DNA of 11,872 nt from Thalassiosira profunda (taxonomy: Eukaryota; Bacillariophyta; Thalassiosirophyceae; Thalassiosirales; Thalassiosiraceae), in NCBI GenBank assembly GCA_036939355.1, contig JALLAP010000555.1, positions 1 through 11,872 on the forward strand. The letters are read 5' to 3'. Positions 1 to 10,910 of the stretch are shown here, piece after piece. Under the pieces are notes generated by a model. That model was not told where the DNA came from and did no database searches. It saw only the letters and a list, made by a program, of their open reading frames with translations. Numbering within the stretch: the stretch's first letter is position 1; every line of letters begins with the position of its first letter. The position numbers and the translations under genes are program-made.

Positions 1-3000
1 AACAGAAGCTTGGACTGCAGCGCCGAAAGGACGGCCTTCCTGTTCTCTGGATCGAACGAATACCGGCGGGTCCCTTCTTCCCCTTCCGAGCTTCGCCGCT
101 TGGCAGTCGACCTCGCAGCTTTGTCATTGATCTGCAACAGATAGGACAATCAGTCGAGTGGGAGGATGCAAAAGTGCACAACCTGTGCACAAAACAGCAC
201 CAATCTCACCTTCCTCTCCATGTCGATCAGATTCTGCAGCGCACAGAAGAACAGGCTCTGATCTTTCAGGCTCGTCCCGGTCAGAACGTAGCTCTTCTCC
301 ACGATGCAGATATCGCCTTCCTTCGCCGCGTCTAACATTGCTTGATACGATTCGAGGCCGAGTTGGCGAGCACGATCCGATATGGGCGGACCCAGCGCTT
401 CCGTCAGCCATTTCTCCTCCGAGGTTGTGGGTCCACCAAAAGTCTCCTCGATGTATGCACTTTCATCAAGTTGCGAGGTTTCGTCGAACGCCAAATCGCC
501 AACAGAAGCAGACTTGAGCTTGGGTCTGAGCATAACTTTGTCCATGGCCCCGCGAAGACCCACGCCGGCGGCATTGTGGCTCTCTTCGCTGTCCTTCCTA
601 CCCCAATTTAGGCTATTCGCCCTCTCCATCATGCTATTCGCCCTCTTCATGAGTGGCCGGCCAGCGCCAAAGAGGGGCCCCGATGATTGCAATCTAGTAG
701 GACGCCTGGCCTTCCATTGCCGCCGCCACCATTTGGCCAGTCGAGACGCAGAGTTGCGCCTTTCCCTCTGCAAAGAAATGAGAGACGAAAGGGCCTGAGC
801 GTCTTTGCCGGTGACCTCGTCCTTGATGGTGATCGCGCATCCATGGCTGAGAGACCCAGCGACATCCGTGAACTGAAGCGAGAAGTGGTGGGTTGCAAGC
901 GGTAGATATGAGTATTGGCTCGCAGCGCCTGGACAAAACAAGACAAACATAAGCACCACTCACCCCTTGCAGCTGATAACTGTCGCCACCGGCTCCCAAC
1001 CATCCCAATCTCCTGGCGCCTTCTTTGGCGCATCGGGGGACGAGTCGAATGCGGAGTCCATTGGGAAAGCAAAACGCACCCAGGGCTTCGGCGTCGATAT
1101 CCGATTCGGAAGCTCCGGTGGGATATTGATCGACCAAGCCAATCTGCTTGGTAACGAACGGATCCAAGAAGCGATTTCCACACGCACGCAGCTCGGCCTT
1201 CTCCTTCATCAGCGACGACGGACTGGTGGAGAGGAGCGAAAACTGCTGATACGCACGGTCTCGTTCCGTGCTCCGAGAGTCCCGCTTGGACGCCAGCGAC
1301 AAATGCATGAGCTGGAGGCGCAAAAAGGCGTCCAAGTTCTCGCCGAACGTACTCGATGCCACGGACGCTGCACCCTCCGTGTGCACACTGCCGCGAATCG
1401 ACGTTTTGGGCCCCACTCCGAGCGCGGTATTTCTGGTAGACGAGTTGGTCGATTCTCGCGATGTCTTCGACCATCGCTCGTGCTGCTTGATCACCCTCAT
1501 CATCGTCATGCGCACCGTGTCGACGTTCTGCTCTGCTCCGTTGTCCATCATTTCGAGCAGCTTCTTTTTGTGCCGATTTCCTTGCCCCAGCGAGTACGTC
1601 AATCGCGGAGGCTTCACCGGACGCATGGCACCGTTGTTTTGAGAGTGTCGACATAGCGCCGGACTGGCGGAATTGGAAGGCCGGGAAGGCCTGGACGAAT
1701 CCCTCGAGTCGGACGGATCCCTCGAATCCGAATCCTGTTTCATTAGCGACAGATGCAAGGTCAGCCAAAGAGAGTACATTTAGCTCCAGAAATTGCACAG
1801 CCTCGCAACTCACCACCGTATCGCGGACCGAGTCTTCGGCCAGGGTCTCCTGCGTTTTGGGCTGCAGGGGAGCCTCGAGCTTCTTCTCCAGGTGCGCGTC
1901 CCAATCAAAGTCGGCGTACCATCGATGTTGCATGACGGCGCCGCCGCCGCCCATGGTGCGGCCCAATCGCTTCGACTTGGACGTGTTCAGCAGCTTGACG
2001 ATCAAATCCGAGAGATTGTGCGAGAAGAACGACGGGATGTTGACGTGGCCCGACACGATCTGCTTGTAGACTTCCATCGGCTTCTTGGCCGCGAAGGGCT
2101 CCTTTCCGGACGTCATCTCGAAGAGGAATACGCCGAGCGCCCAGTAATCCACGGCCCAGTCATGGCCATCGTTGAGCACAATCTCGGGCGCTAAATAGGC
2201 TGGGGTCCCGCACAAGGTCCACGTTTTGCCGCCATTGATCACCTGCGTTCGGATGCGGGAGACTTCGATTGAGCGAGGCGGATCGTACATGCATCGAACA
2301 GGCATCAAGAGCTCACCTTTGCGAGCCCGAAGTCCACAATCTTCACGTATCCGACAGAATTCATGACGAGATTCTCGGGCTTGAGATCCCTGCAGAAACG
2401 GCAATGTAAGACGGCCTGTCCGCGCATTCTTCAACACAATACACTCTGAGGCGACTCACCGGTACGCAATCTTCTTTGCGTGCATGTGGCAGAACGCGAA
2501 CAGCACCGAGGCCGAGTAGAACTTGCCCCAGTCCTCGGGAAATTGCTTCTCCGCCCGCAGTCGCTTGCACAGCTCCCCGCCCGGGAGCGCCTCGAGCAAA
2601 AAGTAGAGGTAGTCCTCGTCCTCCATGTCGCAGTAATAGCGGTTGACTGCCGCGATGACAGAATGCATAGTTCGTTTGGACAGAGACAATGTGAGCGCAA
2701 GATGCGAACATGATTGCAAATAACCAAGCGACGACGATCGCTCACTGAACGGGTGGTCCAATCCGGCCATGATGGCCTTCTCGTTCTGTATGTGCGCGTC
2801 CAGCCCGTTCTCCTTCAGGGAGTCCTTGGAGATGCACTTCAGCGCAAAGTATCCGTCGTCGCGGTCGAGGCCCTCGACGGGCCGCTTCAGCCTGGCCAGC
2901 CGCACGCGACCGAACGCCCCGATGCCCAGCACCTTGAGGACGTCCAGATCGGCCAGATCGACCTTCGGCGCCGCCCTCGCGCCCTTCCTCGCCGGCCCCG

Positions 3001-5575
3001 TGACGTCGAACTTCTCTTCTCGCCGCCGGTAATCCCCGCCGTGGTCGAGCAGCGACTGCAGATCCCCCAGGAGCAGGTTGAAATCGTTCCGCATCAATAT
3101 GTGGCACTCGACGTCGGTTTTGGCCACGCACGACGCCGTCCGCACGTCGTTCGACAGCAAGGCCAGCTCCCCGAAGAACTGCCCGGACGTGAGGGTGACC
3201 ACGGGCGCGTCGCCCTTGGCGCGGATGAAGACGTCCACCTGGCCTTTGTCGATCATGTAAAAGATGTCGCCGGGCTCGCCCTCGCGGACGATGGTGTGTC
3301 CGGCCGAAAACGATTCGTGGAGGGTCGCGAGGGCGAGGGTGCCAATTTCCGATTCCGAGAGGACGTCGCCGAGATATTTGGCCTTGATTTGGACTTTCTT
3401 CAGGAAGCGGACCTTGGCCTCCAACCGCCGCCGCTTGAACTGGCCCGTGATGGCCCGGAACGCCGTCCGGCCGATGCTCCACAATTTGCAAAAGTACCGC
3501 GTCCTTAGCGTCGCCGATCTCGGACAGCCGTACAGCAAGGCAATTTCGCCAAAGCACGCGCCCGCATACAACGTCGCCTTGTGCGCGTCCCCCTCGTACA
3601 CGTCGATCGTGCCCCGCTCCAGGACGTAAAAGGCGTCGCCCTCGTCGCCCTCCCGGATGATGGTGGATCCCGCCGACGCCTCGGAGGGGGCGAAGACGGC
3701 GACGAGTTCGGTCAGTTCCTCGGGGGAGCAGGCCTTGAAGAGGACGTTGTCGGCGATGGCGTTATGGAGGAGCGTTTGGACGGAGGGGGGCTTGGGCACT
3801 GTGACTTTGACGTAGTCGGTTTCGGGAGTGCGGGAGACGATGGCGCGCCGGCCCTCATCCTGCGGTCGCTTTTTGGACCGCTCCGAGCCTTTCTCATTGC
3901 AATTTGCAGAGTTGAGTTGGATCGAGGTGAGAAATAAATGTGAGATTGAGATTGGTTGAAGACAATCAAGTGAGAAAAATTCAAATTCGAAATTTGAAAT
4001 TCAACTTGAAAATTCAAAAACGCTCGTTTGAAAATTCAAACGGTCTTTTGAAAATTCAATTGGAATTTTCAAATTTCGAATTTCCAAATGGCAAAAGTTT
4101 CAAACGACCGCGACCAATCACTCACGCTTTTCCCGCTTCGACGCCCTCCTTCGCGACGCCCCCTCGTTCGCCGCTCCCCCGTCCCTCCGGAGCTGCCGTG
4201 CCATCGACCGGGCGTGCTCCCCGATCGGATCGCGCCGCATGCTGGAGTCCAACCGCAACGACGCCTCGCCGCTCGTCGCCGCGGAGTCCAGCGAGGTGTT
4301 GGAGGCGCGCGAGACGAAAGACGTTTTTGGTTGCGCGTTTGTGGCGGAGGTGGAGGCGGAGAAGTCGTCCTCCCGGATGACGTCGAGGTTGTCGGACCGT
4401 CGGCGCGGATGCGAGGGGTGCGGCGTTGTTGTCGTCGTTGGGGGCGGCAGGAGGTGGCCGTGCAGCGAATGGAATGAGACGGCGGGCTTGGGGCCGGGAG
4501 GGCGCGCGCCTTGAGACACTTTGTTGCCGCTCTCGCTCTCTCCCTCGTCGTCGATGGGCGCGATCCGCTGGGGCCGGCCCGCCGCCCCTGACGCCCCCTG
4601 AGGCAGAACCCGCGGCGGTGGGCGAGTGATCGCATCAGTCGTCGCCTCGGGCGCCGAGCTCCGCCGCGACGCCTTCTCGTTTCTCCTCCCCGCCATCCCC
4701 GCCGCGGACGCCGGCGCCGCCCGCCACGACGACCGCGTCTGCTCCAGCACCTCGCTGTCCAGCTCCAATTCGGTCGGGATGGATTGGTAGTCTCCGGCCG
4801 GTTGGCCCTTGAACACCCGCCCCGCGACTTGGGATGGGGGACGCTTTCCGTTTTTCACCGCCTCGATGGACTCGTCGTCCCCGTTGCCCCCTCTTCCATC
4901 GACCGGTCCCCCGTCCTCCCCGAGCCGGTTGATCATCAAAACGACGGCGTCCTCCGAGGCCATGCTGAGGTCGCTGCTCAATTGTTTGTTCGAGGAGGCC
5001 GAGCCCATGCTCTTGCTGCTCTCGGAGCGGGAGAGGCCCCGGGGCCGGTGGTGGTTGTTGATGGCGGAGGGGGAGCCGGCGTCGTCGAATTTGGTGGGGA
5101 CCGACACGGTCACCACATTGTGCTTTGTGCCGCCGTCGGCGCGATCCTGCGGCGCGGGCGCTTTTCTCTCCCCGGAGTCGACCGGGACCGCCGCCGTCCG
5201 GCCCGTTCCGGCGCCCATGCCGTCGCTGTCGTCGTCCCTCCCCGTCATCGCCCGGCCTTCCAATTTCGCCAGCATTCTTTCCAGGTTGTCCGACGATCCA
5301 TCCCCCGAGGCGCGCGAGCTGCCGGCATCGCCGCCAAAGCCGCAGATGAGGCTGGACTTTTTGTTGTCGCCGGTGCGATTGCTGTCGTCGACGTCGGAGG
5401 AATCGACGGTGGAATCGCCCCGTTGGCGGCCGGGGCGGGGCCCGAAGCCGCAGATGAGCGAGTCGGAGTGGGCGGAGTGGTCGGTAGTAGCGGTGGCGTC
5501 GTCCCCTCCTCCTACTCCCCCGGGGGAGGACAGTTGCTGCGTTGTTTGGGATGTGGAGGTTGTCATGGCGGCCAT
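1..5575 (-). CDS. PKG-type cyclic-nucleotide-dependent protein kinase fused to a uDENN module (3' end outside window)
   Basis: Inferred exons, in order of transcription: 5575-4126, 3888-2746, 2646-2460, 2389-2317, 2242-1814, 1734-964, 872-210, 131-<1. Seen directly: every donor is GTGAG and every acceptor ends in AG. The phases (1, 1, 2, 0, 0, 0, 0) all match, giving about 1615 residues with no stop. The ATG at 5575 is the first after an in-frame TGA just upstream. The kinase frame has no ATG upstream of its first nucleotide-binding domain, so exon 1 is needed to start it. Order: disordered tail (1-483), basic stretch (475-500), two cNMP domains (about 525-765), AGC kinase (798-1062), Ser/Arg linker (1085-1285), uDENN (1287 to about 1572). 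Inference: a soluble or membrane-recruited cGMP effector that also activates a Rab GTPase. Alternative: two genes split near 1779. However, the kinase frame has no stop before 647 if that intron is retained, which favours one gene. Confidence 0.75.
210..1158 (-). other. uDENN module (Rab guanine-exchange family) with a long internal insert, interrupted by an intron
   Basis: Seen: FVTKQIGLVDQYP (about 1287-1299), then FCFPNG (1315-1320), the hallmark of uDENN. After the intron at 873-963 comes FTDVAGSLSHGCAI (1352-1365), matching the family's TDxxGxxxxG strand. A later ICIV...SLFFCALQNLI stretch (1539-1567) matches the uDENN closing strand and helix. Between the last two lies an insert of about 165 residues rich in Ser, Arg and Lys. 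DENN proteins act as GDP/GTP exchange factors for Rab GTPases. The catalytic cDENN and dDENN parts would follow beyond base 1, so activity cannot be judged. The order and spacing resemble plant and protist DENN proteins more than the short animal uDENN. Confidence 0.75.
1905..2947 (-). other. AGC-family serine/threonine kinase domain, PKG-like, with intact catalytic residues
   Basis: Joined across four exons (introns 2647-2745, 2390-2459 and 2243-2316 removed). The glycine loop is GIGAFGRV at 805-812, the ATP lysine is in YFALK (Lys834), the helix-C glutamate is Glu853, and HPFI is at 862-865. The catalytic loop YRDLKPEN has Asp928 and is completed only by splicing the intron at 2390-2459. 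The metal motif DFG is at 946-948. The activation loop TWTLCGTPAYLAPE carries the expected phospho-threonine at Thr960. All residues needed for activity are present, so it should be an active kinase. The domain ends near RWYADFDW (1058-1065). After it I see no AGC hydrophobic motif; the chain runs into a Ser/Arg linker instead of stopping. Confidence 0.93.
3046..3760 (-). other. Tandem cyclic-nucleotide-binding domains (CNB-A and CNB-B)
   Basis: CNB-A covers roughly residues 527-645. Its phosphate-binding cassette is FGEIALLYGCPRSATL, with Glu598 and Arg607 in the positions that hold the ribose 2'-OH and the cyclic phosphate. CNB-B covers about 646-765 with cassette FGELALLSNDVRTAS (Glu723, Arg733). 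In known PKGs the residue after the Arg is Thr or Ser and contacts the guanine, whereas PKA usually has Ala. Here it is Ser608 in A and Thr734 in B, which suggests cGMP preference for both. Protist kinases do not always obey this rule, so the ligand remains inferred. The domain pair and its spacing to the kinase match PKG rather than PKA, whose regulatory part is a separate protein. Confidence 0.92.
3889..4125 (-). repeat. Long AT-rich first intron packed with small inverted repeats
   Basis: At 237 bp it is far longer than the other introns of this gene (70-99 bp) and is AT-rich within a GC-rich gene. The donor is C|GTGAGT at 4125 and the acceptor is AAAG|GC at 3889/3888. TTGAAAATTCAA occurs three times (4006-4017, 4028-4039, 4048-4059). 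Perfect inverted repeats with tiny loops lie at 3980-3998 (8-bp arms), 4025-4042 (8-bp arms, 2-base centre) and 4047-4073 (11-bp arms, 5-base loop). If the upstream exon were a separate gene, this stretch would be an intergenic spacer instead. Confidence 0.65.
4126..5575 (-). other. Exon 1: long disordered N-terminal tail of the kinase gene
   Basis: Residues 1-483 are rich in Ser, Gly, Asp, Ala and Arg and show no recognisable domain. The motif SLICGFG occurs twice, at residues 39-45 and 75-81, and is the only hydrophobic repeat in the tail. A short likely helix (LERMLAKLEGRAM) lies at 98-110. Basic RRxS-type sites are present at 304-307 (RRSS), 391-394 (RRRS) and 475-479 (RRRAS). The first ATG is followed by a second one within GCCGCCATGA. 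Classical PKGs carry a leucine zipper and pseudosubstrate N-terminally, and I see no heptad zipper here. The coding frame is supported by the exact phase match (C|GC) to the next exon and by G/C-rich third positions. Two other open frames cover the same bases, so the exon is less certain than the kinase domain. Confidence 0.7.
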
Positions 5576-6628: not shown

Positions 6629-7690
6629 ATGTCAGAACAAGGGTTCGAGGAGGGGGACTGCCCGCTCTGCCTGGAGCCCCTTCCTCCGTTTTGGGATTTG
6701 CAGGACCGTCGGAGAATATTCGTCTGCTGTGGAAAGCACTGCTGCCTCGACTGCGGGAAACGGAGCGACGAGTATTTGCGGACGGCGCGGGACAGTGGCT
6801 CGTACGGAAGGGAGGAAGAGCAGCTCGCCAGCAAGTGCCCGCTCTGCCGGGGCCCAATACTTACGGGCGATGATTTAGGGAGGTCGATGGTAGATAGATT
6901 TGAGAAGAGTTGTTTGCCGCTCTCGTTGTACCGGGAGTTGGGGGTGAGGTATCTTGAAGGGTGGGATGGCGTGGAGGTAAATGTGGAAAGGGGCATGGAG
7001 ATATTGATGCTGGGCGCAAAGAAAACCCCCAATTGCCAGTATCAAATTGGCATCATCTATGGTAAGGGCAAATATGGTCTGCCGAAATCGACGGCAGAAG
7101 CAAAGCGGTGGTATCTTGCCGCGACAGAACAGGGTCACGCGATTGCCGAATTCAATCTTGGTTTGATGTTTCTGGATGAGGGGGATGATGCTGAATTCTT
7201 GCGATATATGAGAGGCTCCGCATCCAAAGGCTTTGGCGAGGCTTGCTTCAATCTGGGTGTGGCTTACTACACTGGCGAATACGGTGCCCAAAAATCCGAG
7301 GAAGAGGCAATCCGCGTCTGGACCACGGGGGCTGAGGGGGGGCATGTGAATTGTATGAAACAGTTGGCAAAGGCCATGTGCAATCCTATTGCGTTGGACA
7401 ATCCCACTTTCACTGAAGGAATGCATTGGCTCCGACGAGTGGCCGATGAGGGCGATGAATACGCAATCTTGAACCTGGGACATTTGGAAAAGTGGGCGAG
7501 CGGCAGATGCTTCATGTGCGAAAAGACAGCGCCCCCCGAGACAACCGAGACAACATCATTCCACCAATGCTCGAGGTGCCGCGTGGCGTGGTATTGCAGC
7601 AAGGACTGTCAGACACAGCACTGGGTGGCGGAGGAGGGTGGGCACGAGCAGTTTTGCATCATGTGGAAATATTTCTGTAACTCGGCGTAG
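6629..7690 (+). CDS. RING-like / Sel1-repeat / MYND zinc-finger protein
   Basis: Single exon, 353 residues, starting MSEQGF. The N-terminus has a RING-like zinc site: CPLC (11-14), CCGKHCCLDC (33-42, with His37) and CPLC (70-73), the spacing expected for an E3 ubiquitin ligase. Residues about 100-285 form four or five Sel1-type helical repeats (for example AEFNLGLMF at 173-181 and ACFNLGVAYY at 205-214), which act as protein-binding scaffolds. The C-terminus is a MYND finger: C294, C297, C314, C317, YC at 322-323, C327, H339 and C343. There is no signal peptide or membrane segment. By family knowledge it could be an E3 ligase whose Sel1 and MYND parts choose the target; the substrate is unknown. 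I remember large families of this architecture in diatoms. It is intronless and looks less GC-rich than the kinase gene. It converges with the next gene across 54 bp. Confidence 0.9.
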   Translation: MSEQGFEEGDCPLCLEPLPPFWDLQDRRRIFVCCGKHCCLDCGKRSDEYLRTARDSGSYGREEEQLASKCPLCRGPILTGDDLGRSMVDRFEKSCLPLSLYRELGVRYLEGWDGVEVNVERGMEILMLGAKKTPNCQYQIGIIYGKGKYGLPKSTAEAKRWYLAATEQGHAIAEFNLGLMFLDEGDDAEFLRYMRGSASKGFGEACFNLGVAYYTGEYGAQKSEEEAIRVWTTGAEGGHVNCMKQLAKAMCNPIALDNPTFTEGMHWLRRVADEGDEYAILNLGHLEKWASGRCFMCEKTAPPETTETTSFHQCSRCRVAWYCSKDCQTQHWVAEEGGHEQFCIMWKYFCNSA

Positions 7691-7744: not shown

Positions 7745-9030
7745 CTACACCTCCAAATATTGCAAGACGGCCGGGATAATGACATTCATATCGTTGCCGC
7801 AGTTTCGACGGCTAGCCTGTCTTTCCTCTGCATTTTGCCCGTTGCCATCGATATTGCATCTCCAAATCGCCAGCTCAAGCATCGTCGTTACATCCAACCG
7901 ATCGTAGTAGGCAAACCACTCTTGGATGCATCGGAGTTTCTGTCCCTCCGTCTGCGGAATGCGGCGTAGGATGCCACGTACCTTTGCCTTGGCTTGCTCG
8001 ATCTGGCGCGGGCTCCTGTACTGCATCCACTTGGAGATTACCAGTTTCCTTCCTGGAGTGACAGGCATTGTTCCTCTCATTAACCGACAGCTGGAGCTCT
8101 CAATACCAATCACAACTGCCACGGGAGGAATGTTGATAGCTCCAGAGCTGGGCATCCGCGGAATGCTTCAGAACCAATATCAAGGACCCCCTCGCGCAGA
8201 GTCACTTCTGACAGACTGGTGCAATTCTCAAATGCAAAAGCCTCAATGTCCGCGACAGATGATGGGATGGTGATGCGCTCAAATGAATTGCAGTCACGAA
8301 ATGTCGCTCTGCCAATCATCTTTAGTCCCTCGCGAAGCTCCACGTGCTTCAACTGATGGCAGCCATCAAATGCGACATCTCCTACTTGCAATGTCGTCGA
8401 GGGGACACGGATACCGGCTAGCGACGTGCAACTTCCGAATGCACCCCTTTTGATACGCTGCAGGCCCTCATTAAGATCCACTTCTGCCAAACTTTTGCAG
8501 TTACAGAATGCCTCGGATTCAATGTCTGTGACAGACGCGGGAATGTTGATCCGCCTCAAAGCGCTGCAATTGTAGAATGCTTGTGCTCCGATGCGCTGTA
8601 TCCCCTCGCTGAGCTCAACTTCAACCAAACTTTTGCAGCACATAAATGCCCACTCCTCAACTTCAGCAACAGATGAGGGGATGCTCACCCGGTTCAGTGC
8701 CTCACAATTGTAGAATGCCCCCGCTCCAATCTTCGTTGTGTTTCCGAGATCGATCTCCTCCAATCTCGCGCACCACCGAAATGCTTCCCTGCCAATCTCG
8801 ACCGCAGAGGCAGCGGGCCAAACAACGTGCTCCAGCAAGTCACAATAGCTGAATGCAGAAGCCGAAATGGTGCTGACATTGCACAGATCCAACGCCACCA
8901 AATCCCTACAGAAATGAAAGGCCCCTTCAGGAATCACCGTTACGCCCGATGACACGCGGATCCGGCTGGCATTCCGGTGCCAATCCTGGACCTCGCCGCC
9001 GTCGTACTCGACGTATTCCTCCCCAACCAT
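7745..9030 (-). CDS. BspA-type leucine-rich repeat (LRR_5) protein with an apparent frameshift before its C-terminal tail
   Basis: The start is the ATG at 9030 (MVGEEYVEYDGGEVQDWHRN), the only in-frame ATG before the repeats. Residues 30-298 hold twelve repeats of about 23 residues, each with an AF-x-x-C core, alternating an acidic form (LSEGIQRIGAQAF) with an IPSSV form (IPASVTDIESEAF). This frame stops at 8110, mid-repeat. The continuation INIPP, the basic segment PVTPGRKLVISKW and the tail TTMLELAIWRCNI...VLQYLEV lie in another frame and end at 7745. That tail resembles the C-terminus I remember for diatom members. No plausible intron separates the frames; one missing base near 8137-8142 would join them into about 428 residues. 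It is therefore a sequencing error, a young pseudogene or a truncated allele. Family role: protein-interaction surface, function unknown. No signal peptide or transmembrane segment. Confidence 0.8.
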
Positions 9031-9557
9031 CCTTCGCGAAAGTCGACGGTGGTTGCCAAAATTACCAGGCGATATGAATATAGATACAGCACCAGAGAAG
9101 GATGGACCGGAGAAGAGTGAAGCCGGCAGCGCGGGGAATACAACAATATGTACTTCTTGTGGCCTGTTGCGATCTTTTCCCTTTTCGCGGCCACCTCGCT
9201 CTTTCCCCACCACTTGACGGCGTCGTCGGGTGTGTGTAGATAGCGGCGCCAGTCGCAGCGATGCGATAATACACACAACAGGCGCCTCATCCCCCCACCG
9301 CGCGAGGCTAGGTAGGTACTATCCGGCGCGTGGAGGGCGGGGGCAAATAATAATCTCCGCTCGCTAATAAAGCGGCGAAGAATAATACTGATTCCATCGT
9401 CAAAGACATCAAATCCTACCAGTTGAAGCTCATTTGGCGATCCTCCACGCGTGCCTGCTCTTGAGCTCGAGCTCGATCGCGAACACGTCCCCTCTCGCTC
9501 TCGCACCAAAGTCAAAGAACAAAGGTCCTCGCATCGATCGCCCCGGTCTTCAGCGCC
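9031..9557. promoter_or_regulatory. Divergent intergenic region between the LRR gene and the DGAT2 gene
   Basis: A 527-bp gap holding the upstream regions of two genes that point away from each other. It has AT-rich patches (around 9070-9090 and 9345-9395) and a 12-bp palindrome GAGCTCGAGCTC at 9463-9474. The reading frame of the LRR gene stays open upstream of 9030 but contains no ATG, so I treat it as non-coding. I see no clear TATA box, RNA gene or repeat family. Confidence 0.5.
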
Positions 9558-10910
9558 ATGTGCCTCCCCACGGAGCGATCCAACAAGCCCGGCAGCAAGC
9601 CCGCGGCGACCGCCGCCGCCGGCTTCAGCCCCCGCCTGATCCGTGCCCGGGCCGACCGCACTCCAAATCCCCTCGCGGCCTGGGCCCTCGTCACCCTCTG
9701 CACGGCTTCCTTCTACCTCGGTCCGCTCCTCCTCCTCTCTCCATTCATTCTCTACCCGTTCCATCCTCGGGCGGCCGGGGTCTTGCTCGCCACGGCGGTG
9801 TTTCTGGCGGTGCACCCGGTCTCGCCGTGGCCGCGCTTTCGGAGGATGTGTCAATTGTTCTACGGGGTGTTCGACTTTCACCACAACATGACGCCGAAAT
9901 TGGACGAGATTGCCGCGAGGGAGAACCGGCTGAGCATCGTGGCGTGCCATCCCCACGCGATCATTCCTTTGCACGGTGAGTTTGCAATTTGCAATTTGTT
10001 TCGCGAGGTAGGATACGATAGGATACCGCCGTGCTTTTATTGCAATTCATATTCTAATCGTTTTCTCTTCGTATGTACATAGGCTTCATTTGGGGCGCCA
10101 TCTGCGACCAGCTGCTGCCCCACATGTACGGCGTCGGGGCCACGACGGTGAGGAACATACCTACGGCGGTCGATGCACGAGTTGTGTTGCTTGTGCAAAA
10201 ATCTCATCCGCGAGACGCTCTCTTCTTCCCTATCTCAGGACGGAGCCCTGTACCTGCCGGTGCTCCGCCACGTCCTCCAGTACCTCTCGGTGGGCTCCAC
10301 GCAAAAGAAGGCGATCGTGGCGTCGATGCAACAGAAGGGCCAAAACCTCTTCATGCTACCGGGCGGCGTCGCGGAGATCTTCCTGAGCCATCGCCGGCCG
10401 ACGTCGGACAATACGCTCCCGAACGTGCAGACGATCAAAGCGCGGAGATACGGACTGATGAAGGTCGCGCTGGAGACGGGCGCGTCCGTCTACCCCTGCT
10501 TCGTGTTCGGAGCGTCGGACATGCTGGATCAATTGACGCCCGTGGACAACAACGGCAGCGACGACAACGAATCGAAGGAAACGAAATCCGGCGGCGGCAT
10601 TGGGAGCGCGATGATGGCCCTGTCGCGAAAGATCGGGGGCGGCCTGACGCTCTACTACGGGCAGTACGGCCTTCCCATACCGTGGACGCCGCGCCTATCG
10701 ATGGTCATGGGCGACCCCGTGCACCCCGTTTTGAACGGCAAAACGGTGGCGAACGTGAGCGGAGACAAGCAAACGTGCGAGCGGGTGGACAATCCGACGC
10801 CCGAACAGGTGAACGAGCTGATGGAGCGATACGTCGACGCCACGCACCGCCTCTTCGAGCAATACAAGGCGATGGCTGGTTACCCGAACGACACGCTCCG
10901 AATCATCTAG
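9558..10910 (+). CDS. DGAT2-type acyl-CoA:diacylglycerol acyltransferase
   Basis: Exons 9558-9975, 10083-10147 and 10239-10910 (introns of 107 and 91 bp, donors GTGAGT and GTGAGG, acceptors ATAG and CTCAG) give 384 residues, a normal DGAT2 length. A hydrophobic hairpin lies at about 39-88. The active-site region reads HPHAIIPLHG at 131-140; the usual family motif is HPHG, so the fourth residue is Ala. Further family marks are LYLPVLR (165-171), the PGGVAE motif (202-207), YPCFVFG (246-252) and GDPVHPV (319-325). The family makes triacylglycerol from diacylglycerol and acyl-CoA at the ER and lipid droplets; related members make wax or monoacylglycerol-derived lipids, so the exact substrate is inferred. 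An acidic, low-complexity insert at about 259-277 is probably a loop. The start ATG precedes a basic, soluble N-terminus. Confidence 0.9.

Follow-up and report, generated by a model that had tools for sequence, protein, structure and literature searches.

Does a single gene of the diatom Thalassiosira profunda join a cGMP-dependent-type protein kinase (PKG) to a DENN module, and could a cyclic nucleotide thereby control a Rab exchange factor in cis? Here, we analyse the locus that raises these questions, namely its gene model, its relatives among public proteins, and the readings that its anatomy permits. The window is the whole stretch of DNA analysed, contig C554 of 11,872 bases, in an assembly of 21.8 Mb in 1,366 contigs.

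Gene model on the contig

The kinase–DENN gene lies on the minus strand, and the splice model drawn from the sequence has eight exons running from 5575 to 1 (table 1). All seven introns are GT–AG, with lengths of 237, 99, 70, 74, 79, 91 and 78 nt and phases 1, 1, 2, 0, 0, 0 and 0, which are compatible across all joins. The spliced frame comprises 1,615 codons without a stop and is still open at contig position 1, which upholds the claim of an earlier, sequence-only reading that one continuous frame with seven phase-matched introns runs from kinase to DENN with no stop between them. The same reading had placed the gene at 1–3888; position 3888 is the boundary of exon 2, the gene most likely starts upstream of it, at the ATG at 5575, and with the span corrected to 1–5575 the observation holds, and on firmer ground than first claimed. 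The encoded protein consists, in order, of a low-complexity N-terminus, two cNMP-binding domains (CNBs), an AGC kinase, a linker and a uDENN. For intron 963–873, which follows the FCFPNG motif, other acceptors at 928 or 918 and an unspliced alternative were rejected, as they give 8, 7 and 7 stops, respectively; proteins P0001, P0006, P0016 and P0017 read ..Q(L/I)QGFTDV.. across this intron, matching the splice model.

Table 1. Features of the window, with positions on the contig and the basis of each assignment.
Feature	Position	Strand	Basis or remark
Exon 1, encoding a 483-aa N-terminus of low complexity	4126..5575	-	open frame, GT donor at 4125
Exon 2, with CNB-A and CNB-B, the pseudosubstrate-like motif ahead of them and the first part of the kinase N-lobe	2746..3888	-	splice model
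GRRAIV, pseudosubstrate-like, directly before CNB-A	3836..3853	-	motif comparison
CNB-A phosphate-binding cassette FGEIALLYGCPRSAT	3509..3553	-	aligned to PKG I-beta chain 7lv3_A
CNB-B, best PF00027 stretch	3071..3316	-	Pfam; cassette FGELALLSNDVRTAS at 3175-3131
AGC protein kinase domain over four exons	1919..2941	-	Pfam Pkinase 187 bits
Exon 3	2460..2646	-	splice model
Exon 4	2317..2389	-	splice model
Exon 5	1814..2242	-	splice model
Phase-0 intron, kinase exon to linker/uDENN exon	1735..1813	-	ACGGTG/GTGAGT ... AAACAG/GATTCG; P0001 reads RDTVDSDSRD there
Exon 6, linker and first uDENN part	964..1734	-	257/257 residues equal to P0001
Conserved linker block YSLGQGNRHKKKLLEMM	1546..1596	-	regex matches in fused sequences
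uDENN N-terminal half, FCFPNG at 1074-1057	1039..1137	-	PF03456 17.5 bits
Exon 7, uDENN continuation (FTDVAGSLSHGCAI at 872-831) and uDENN–cDENN loop	210..872	-	221/221 residues equal to P0001
Exon 8, ends at contig edge; cDENN comes next in P0001	1..131	-	43/43 residues equal to P0001
Sel1-repeat protein, single frame, C-terminal MYND finger	6629-7687	+	54.7 and 35.6 bits
BspA-type leucine-rich repeat protein	8113-9105	-	236.6 bits
Diacylglycerol acyltransferase (DAGAT), apparently intron-split	9558-10907	+	68.1 bits in 10155-10907

Independent support comes from P0001, a public protein of 1,945 aa encoded on a contig of 1,704,246 bases. For exons 2–8 it agrees with the window protein at 379/381, 63/63, 24/24, 143/143, 257/257, 221/221 and 43/43 residues (99.5–100%), and for exon 1 at 375/483. 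The contrast is sharp: the low-complexity exon 1 diverges from P0001, while exons 3–8 are identical. P0001 extends 333 residues past the window protein and contains a cDENN (PF02141 DENN, 61.1 bits against a cut-off of 23.4, best stretch 1655–1744). Since P0001 matches the exons and carries this domain, the splicing inferred here is upheld, and a cDENN that is missing from the window belongs to the polypeptide. This cDENN falls past the contig end.

The missing 3′ end was also sought elsewhere in the assembly. A PF02141 search gave four places, which represent two other DENN genes and none of which is the fused gene, and a search with P0001 gave no match past its residue 1612; at the sensitivity of these searches, the 3′ part of the fused gene is absent from the assembly. 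The two other DENN genes (C321/C593, loci L003 and L004, and C367/C521, loci L005 and L006) sit on two contigs each, like two haplotypes, and a 601-base probe from the fused gene finds one place. The DENN gene on C321 has a PPR-like tail, which we take to resemble that of DENND4.

Fused relatives and the integrity of the join

Three protein searches were made: with window residues 1095–1615 (20 proteins), with the cDENN part of P0017 (37 proteins) and with the CNB–kinase part of P0019 (the best 120 of 680 proteins examined). Together they contain at least 25 fused sequences (P0001–P0014, P0016–P0024, P0027 and P0041). Precomputed Pfam calls for cNMP binding, kinase and DENN occur together in 20/25; the CNB call is absent in P0004, P0020 and P0022, and the DENN call in P0019 and P0041, both of which terminate within the DENN region. 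Named carriers are Thalassiosira exigua, T. sp. AJA248-18, T. oceanica and Odontella aurita (P0021), and the prefix CCRYP of P0019 presumably denotes Cyclotella cryptica. None of the 37 proteins of the cDENN search bears a pennate-diatom name, most of them carrying no name at all. P0015 is counted as a fusion fragment, since its match begins in the kinase tail, and is labelled DENN-only in the DENN tree and the linker count below. Two architectures stand apart. The metagenomic fused protein P0023 has a second uDENN-like unit before its CNBs (residues 46–414, 128.4 bits to the DENN-part profile), which could be a tandem merger, and P0105, a PKG model of 1,313 aa from Cyclostephanos tholiformis, additionally has PF04121, possibly through a gene-model merger.

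That a PKG-type kinase and a DENN module share one diatom polypeptide is confirmed by the open frame, by P0001 and by the fused sequences. Orthologues in which the two halves are always separate, named beforehand as what would speak against a fusion, are contradicted by the same domain order in at least 25 sequences. The fusion could nevertheless be spurious if gene prediction had joined two neighbouring genes on the same strand, the DENN gene starting near 1779, and an open reading frame with an ATG at 1779 is present inside intron 1735–1813. Several observations weigh against such a join: the fused ORF P0017 bears a transcript label (MMETSP transcript ORF, type complete), the identical join recurs in at least 25 sequences, Odontella P0021 among them, the linker block is conserved, and the intron has phase 0 on both sides. 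The transcript-labelled P0017 and the recurrence in T. exigua, T. oceanica and Odontella aurita make a gene-model merger very unlikely; we rejected it and regard it as exceedingly improbable.

The cyclic-nucleotide-binding and kinase half

The first half of the protein has the anatomy of a PKG. Pfam assigns cNMP_binding with 124.6 bits in two stretches, N-terminal to the kinase on one chain. In a PDB search with the CNBs and kinase, PKG I-beta (7lv3_A) is matched with 383 bits over query residues 29–596. The kinase motifs GIGAFG, YRDLKPEN and DFG are present, and the T-loop TWTLCGTP (2224–2201) aligns with KTWTFCGTP of PKG I-beta, so that the catalytic motifs and the activation-loop threonine are kept. 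Tandem CNBs followed by an AGC kinase on one chain, a TWT T-loop (as in PKG I-beta), serine or threonine in the cassettes and a pseudosubstrate-like motif ahead of CNB-A are common to PKG and the fused protein. They differ in that P0001 has about 890 extra residues C-terminal to the kinase, made up of linker and DENN, and that the fused protein has a low-complexity N-terminus of about 480 aa. The chain of the Plasmodium-type PKG 5dyk aligns twice over its CNB part, and the fused protein has two CNBs.

Serine or threonine after the cassette arginine is a mark of preference for cGMP over cAMP. The cassettes PRSAT and VRTAS (R-S-A and R-T-A) align to TRTAT and VRTAN of PKG I-beta. A genuine fusion whose ligand is cAMP or another nucleotide, outside cGMP signalling, is nonetheless conceivable: PKA catalytic subunits are the best PDB matches next after PKGs, and ligand choice is more than sequence alone can settle. 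The full-length best matches are PKGs, however, with regulatory and catalytic parts on one chain, and serine or threonine follows the arginine in both cassettes, as in PKG I-beta; we consider a ligand other than cGMP improbable.

The RRAIV motif before CNB-A resembles, as we understand them, the inhibitory sites of PKI and PKG I-beta. An R-x-A-(I/V) motif is found before CNB-A in 12 of the 13 fused sequences in which the region was located, several of the other 12 of the 25 being truncated; the exception is P0027, with RKNV. Stand-alone PKGs have a similar ARAAVM-type motif at this place. By its likeness to such sites, RRAIV is a putative pseudosubstrate of the fused kinase.

The linker and the DENN module

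Between kinase and uDENN lies a conserved linker block. Its regular expression matches 18 of the 25 fused sequences, and P0001 and P0041 also have the block with one change; there is no match in P0019, P0020, P0022, P0024 and P0027, in any of the 10 sequences without a kinase domain (nine DENN-only and P0015), or in any of the 17 kinase-only sisters described below.

The uDENN of the window is recognised by PF03456 with 17.5 bits (E 0.0056) against a cut-off of 22.3, and with 20.6 bits in a genome scan; at 17.5 bits it is, taken alone, sub-threshold. The uDENN is also under the Pfam cut-off in P0001, P0006, P0009, P0017, P0021 and P0022, with no call in P0016, and among the fused sequences scanned it is above the cut-off only in P0023 (33.2 bits), P0024 (23.6 bits) and P0027 (25.1 bits). 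For dDENN, the sole Pfam call among the fused sequences scanned is in P0024 (16.6 bits, cut-off 26.8), and the comparison with DENND1A/B gives a collinear match with a non-significant score of about 0 bits. A DENN profile, A3, was built from the fused fragment P0020, P0015 and the nine DENN-only sequences. Against the PDB at E ≤ 1 it matches DENND1A (44.3 bits, E 6.7e-11) and DENND1B (37.7 bits) alone, and hhalign gives 97.4% for A3 against the fish DENND2A-like protein P0037.

Conservation was read from an alignment of 23 fused sequences, from which P0019 and P0011 were left out and in which P0041 is without a cDENN. Conspicuous in these 23, with each letter common to at least 80% of the sequences, are a cDENN core with PLPLP.VS..WG, LLKLLLLERSVL..G...EEVTAC and PYKWASAFMPLLP..MLDFV.SPVPFIAGM, the kinase core, the linker motif Y.LG.GNRH.Q and the uDENN motif FCFPNGL..RL.PR.A..GA.RLGW. 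An alignable cDENN core and a uDENN-like FCFPNG ... FTDxxG block are shared with DENND1A (6ekk), DENND1B (3tw8) and DENND2, whereas the fused protein differs from these DENN Rab GEFs by its cyclic-nucleotide-type kinase, long uDENN–cDENN inserts and a weak dDENN. The C-terminal DENN module comprises a cDENN, a weakly recognised uDENN and probably a dDENN.

How far this module works as an exchange factor is the point on which the main rival reading turns. In that reading the fusion is genuine, and the DENN module is a Rab-binding or membrane anchor for a cGMP-activated kinase, without exchange activity or regulation in cis. The intact kinase motifs, the mostly sub-threshold uDENN and the barely recognisable dDENN are in its favour, as are the kinase-only sisters, which suggest that the kinase is able to work without a DENN. 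The strong conservation of the cDENN core in the 23 aligned sequences weighs against this reading, being consistent with a working module, though not specifically with exchange. A pure anchor is a real possibility, well short of an even chance.

Kinase-only and DENN-only relatives and the origin of the fusion

Both halves of the fused protein are also found apart. Among the best 120 of the 680 CNB–kinase matches, 99 are outside the fused 25 and are mostly 630–820 aa long. Stand-alone diatom PKGs, such as P0055 of T. profunda and P0043 of T. exigua, share the CNB–CNB–kinase core, with 53–54% identity to P0019, and differ in being without a DENN, in a SNFD tail motif (9/10 sequences compared) and in forming a separate clade. 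Contig C1109 of the same assembly (positions 3–158) is 100% identical to residues 685–736 of P0055. A second group, the kinase-only sisters of the fusion, has at least 17 members; eight of the 17 stop about 40 residues past the kinase, the tail of P0062 is odd and divergent, and eight are without a located tail, of which some may be cut sequences. In T. exigua the stand-alone, sister and fused kinds occur together, as P0043, P0052 and P0006, respectively. DENN-only relatives number nine. With kinase-only and DENN-only relatives in existence, members of the family can do without the fusion.

The kinase was placed in two trees. In a mixture-model tree of 45 chosen sequences (16/25 fused, 7/17 kinase-only sisters and 22 others), a branch with SH-aLRT 99 splits the fused and sister sequences from the rest, the stand-alone diatom PKGs included; the bolidophyte Triparma groups with the other PKGs, outside the fused and sister side. 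Monophyly of the fused sequences is not rejected for this set (p-AU 0.473). In a tree of 124 sequences, the fused ones lie inside a 44-member group (support 88) with the 17 sisters, P0038 and P0039. The fused trait changes twice in the 45-sequence mixture-model tree, against three times in the 124-sequence tree, which is without a mixture model and in which the stand-alone tag was given to P0038, a fragment that falls within the fused clade, and to P0039, whose match is oddly long.

The DENN tree, unrooted and of 38 sequences, unites P0021, P0022, P0023, P0024, P0027 and P0041 with the nine DENN-only sequences in a branch of 15, and sets the remaining fusions, that of the window included, apart from it. 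Rooting with fish DENND2 sequences was rejected, as they are too distant, with branches of length 5. From these tree results the fusion seems to be an old one among diatoms, perhaps with a single origin, and the halves also occur apart.

A possible route from cGMP to the Rab cycle

Control of a Rab exchange factor in cis by a cyclic nucleotide would fit this anatomy. In the mechanism we propose, two cyclic-nucleotide sites and the RRAIV pseudosubstrate would keep the kinase off in the resting state, and binding of a Rab by the DENN module would place the enzyme on a membrane. Cyclic GMP, presumably favoured over cAMP by the RSA and RTA cassettes, would release the kinase, which could then phosphorylate its own linker, the uDENN–cDENN loop or nearby trafficking proteins, and this phosphorylation would change Rab exchange. 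A precedent in trans is provided by ULK1, which, according to PMC5869855, phosphorylates DENND3 at S554/S572 and leads to Rab12 activation.

The uDENN–cDENN loop does contain candidate sites. In fused sequences, R/K-R/K-x-S/T sites number 39 against 20.8 expected, with 0 of 1000 shuffles as high, in a count that scored 22/24 sequences, left P0019 out and used shuffles that ignore shared ancestry. The loops of DENN-only sequences, 4/9 of which were scored, have 9 against 4.7 expected, with 35 of 1000 shuffles as high. As the site ratio is the same in DENN-only sequences, the enrichment does not favour phosphorylation in cis, and we rejected it as proof of self-regulation.

One gene, then, encodes a cGMP-dependent-type kinase with a C-terminal DENN module. 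Our preferred reading, that it is a kinase activated by cGMP with a Rab-GEF-type module of its own and would lead from cGMP to vesicle traffic within a single protein, is, in our judgement, evenly poised. A bolder form of this proposal is that the protein evolved once in diatoms and that the kinase, when switched on by cGMP, directly reprograms its own attached Rab exchange module; a pheromone- or stress-induced pulse of cGMP would then drive membrane traffic with no intermediates, as in secretion for the cell wall or in the sexual stage. This form is tentative and rather unlikely.

Novelty and biological meaning

As far as domain composition can tell, the fused protein is a new combination of two known families. 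The prior statement that no PKG–DENN fusion has been described agrees with the open-licence literature, where none was found among the papers listed, an absence that is not proof. That literature, as searched, also yielded no description of a kinase–DENN fusion of any sort and no paper devoted by title to diatom DENN proteins. In the available text of the DENN survey PMC3521125, ‘kinase’ occurs a single time, within the title of a reference, and cNMP nowhere; DENN does not occur in the available parts of PMC2705460, PMC12803021 and PMC3019232. P0013 and P0021 have the database name cGMP-dependent protein kinase, and databases therefore already contain such proteins, named after their kinase half.

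Another cGMP-pathway fusion in diatoms joins a guanylyl cyclase to a phosphodiesterase, a combination that is diatom-only to its authors' knowledge; it makes and destroys cGMP, whereas the fused kinase would respond to it (PMC4726125). Genes of cGMP synthesis are reported to be induced in diatom mating (PMC5485032, PMC8027222), and a cGMP-biosynthesis family also by abiotic stress (PMC7335047). A PKG with a DENN module would name the Rab cycle as a concrete candidate target of cGMP, one that is testable in thalassiosiroids. If true, this would be the first DENN protein, within the literature searched, with cyclic-nucleotide control as part of its own chain.
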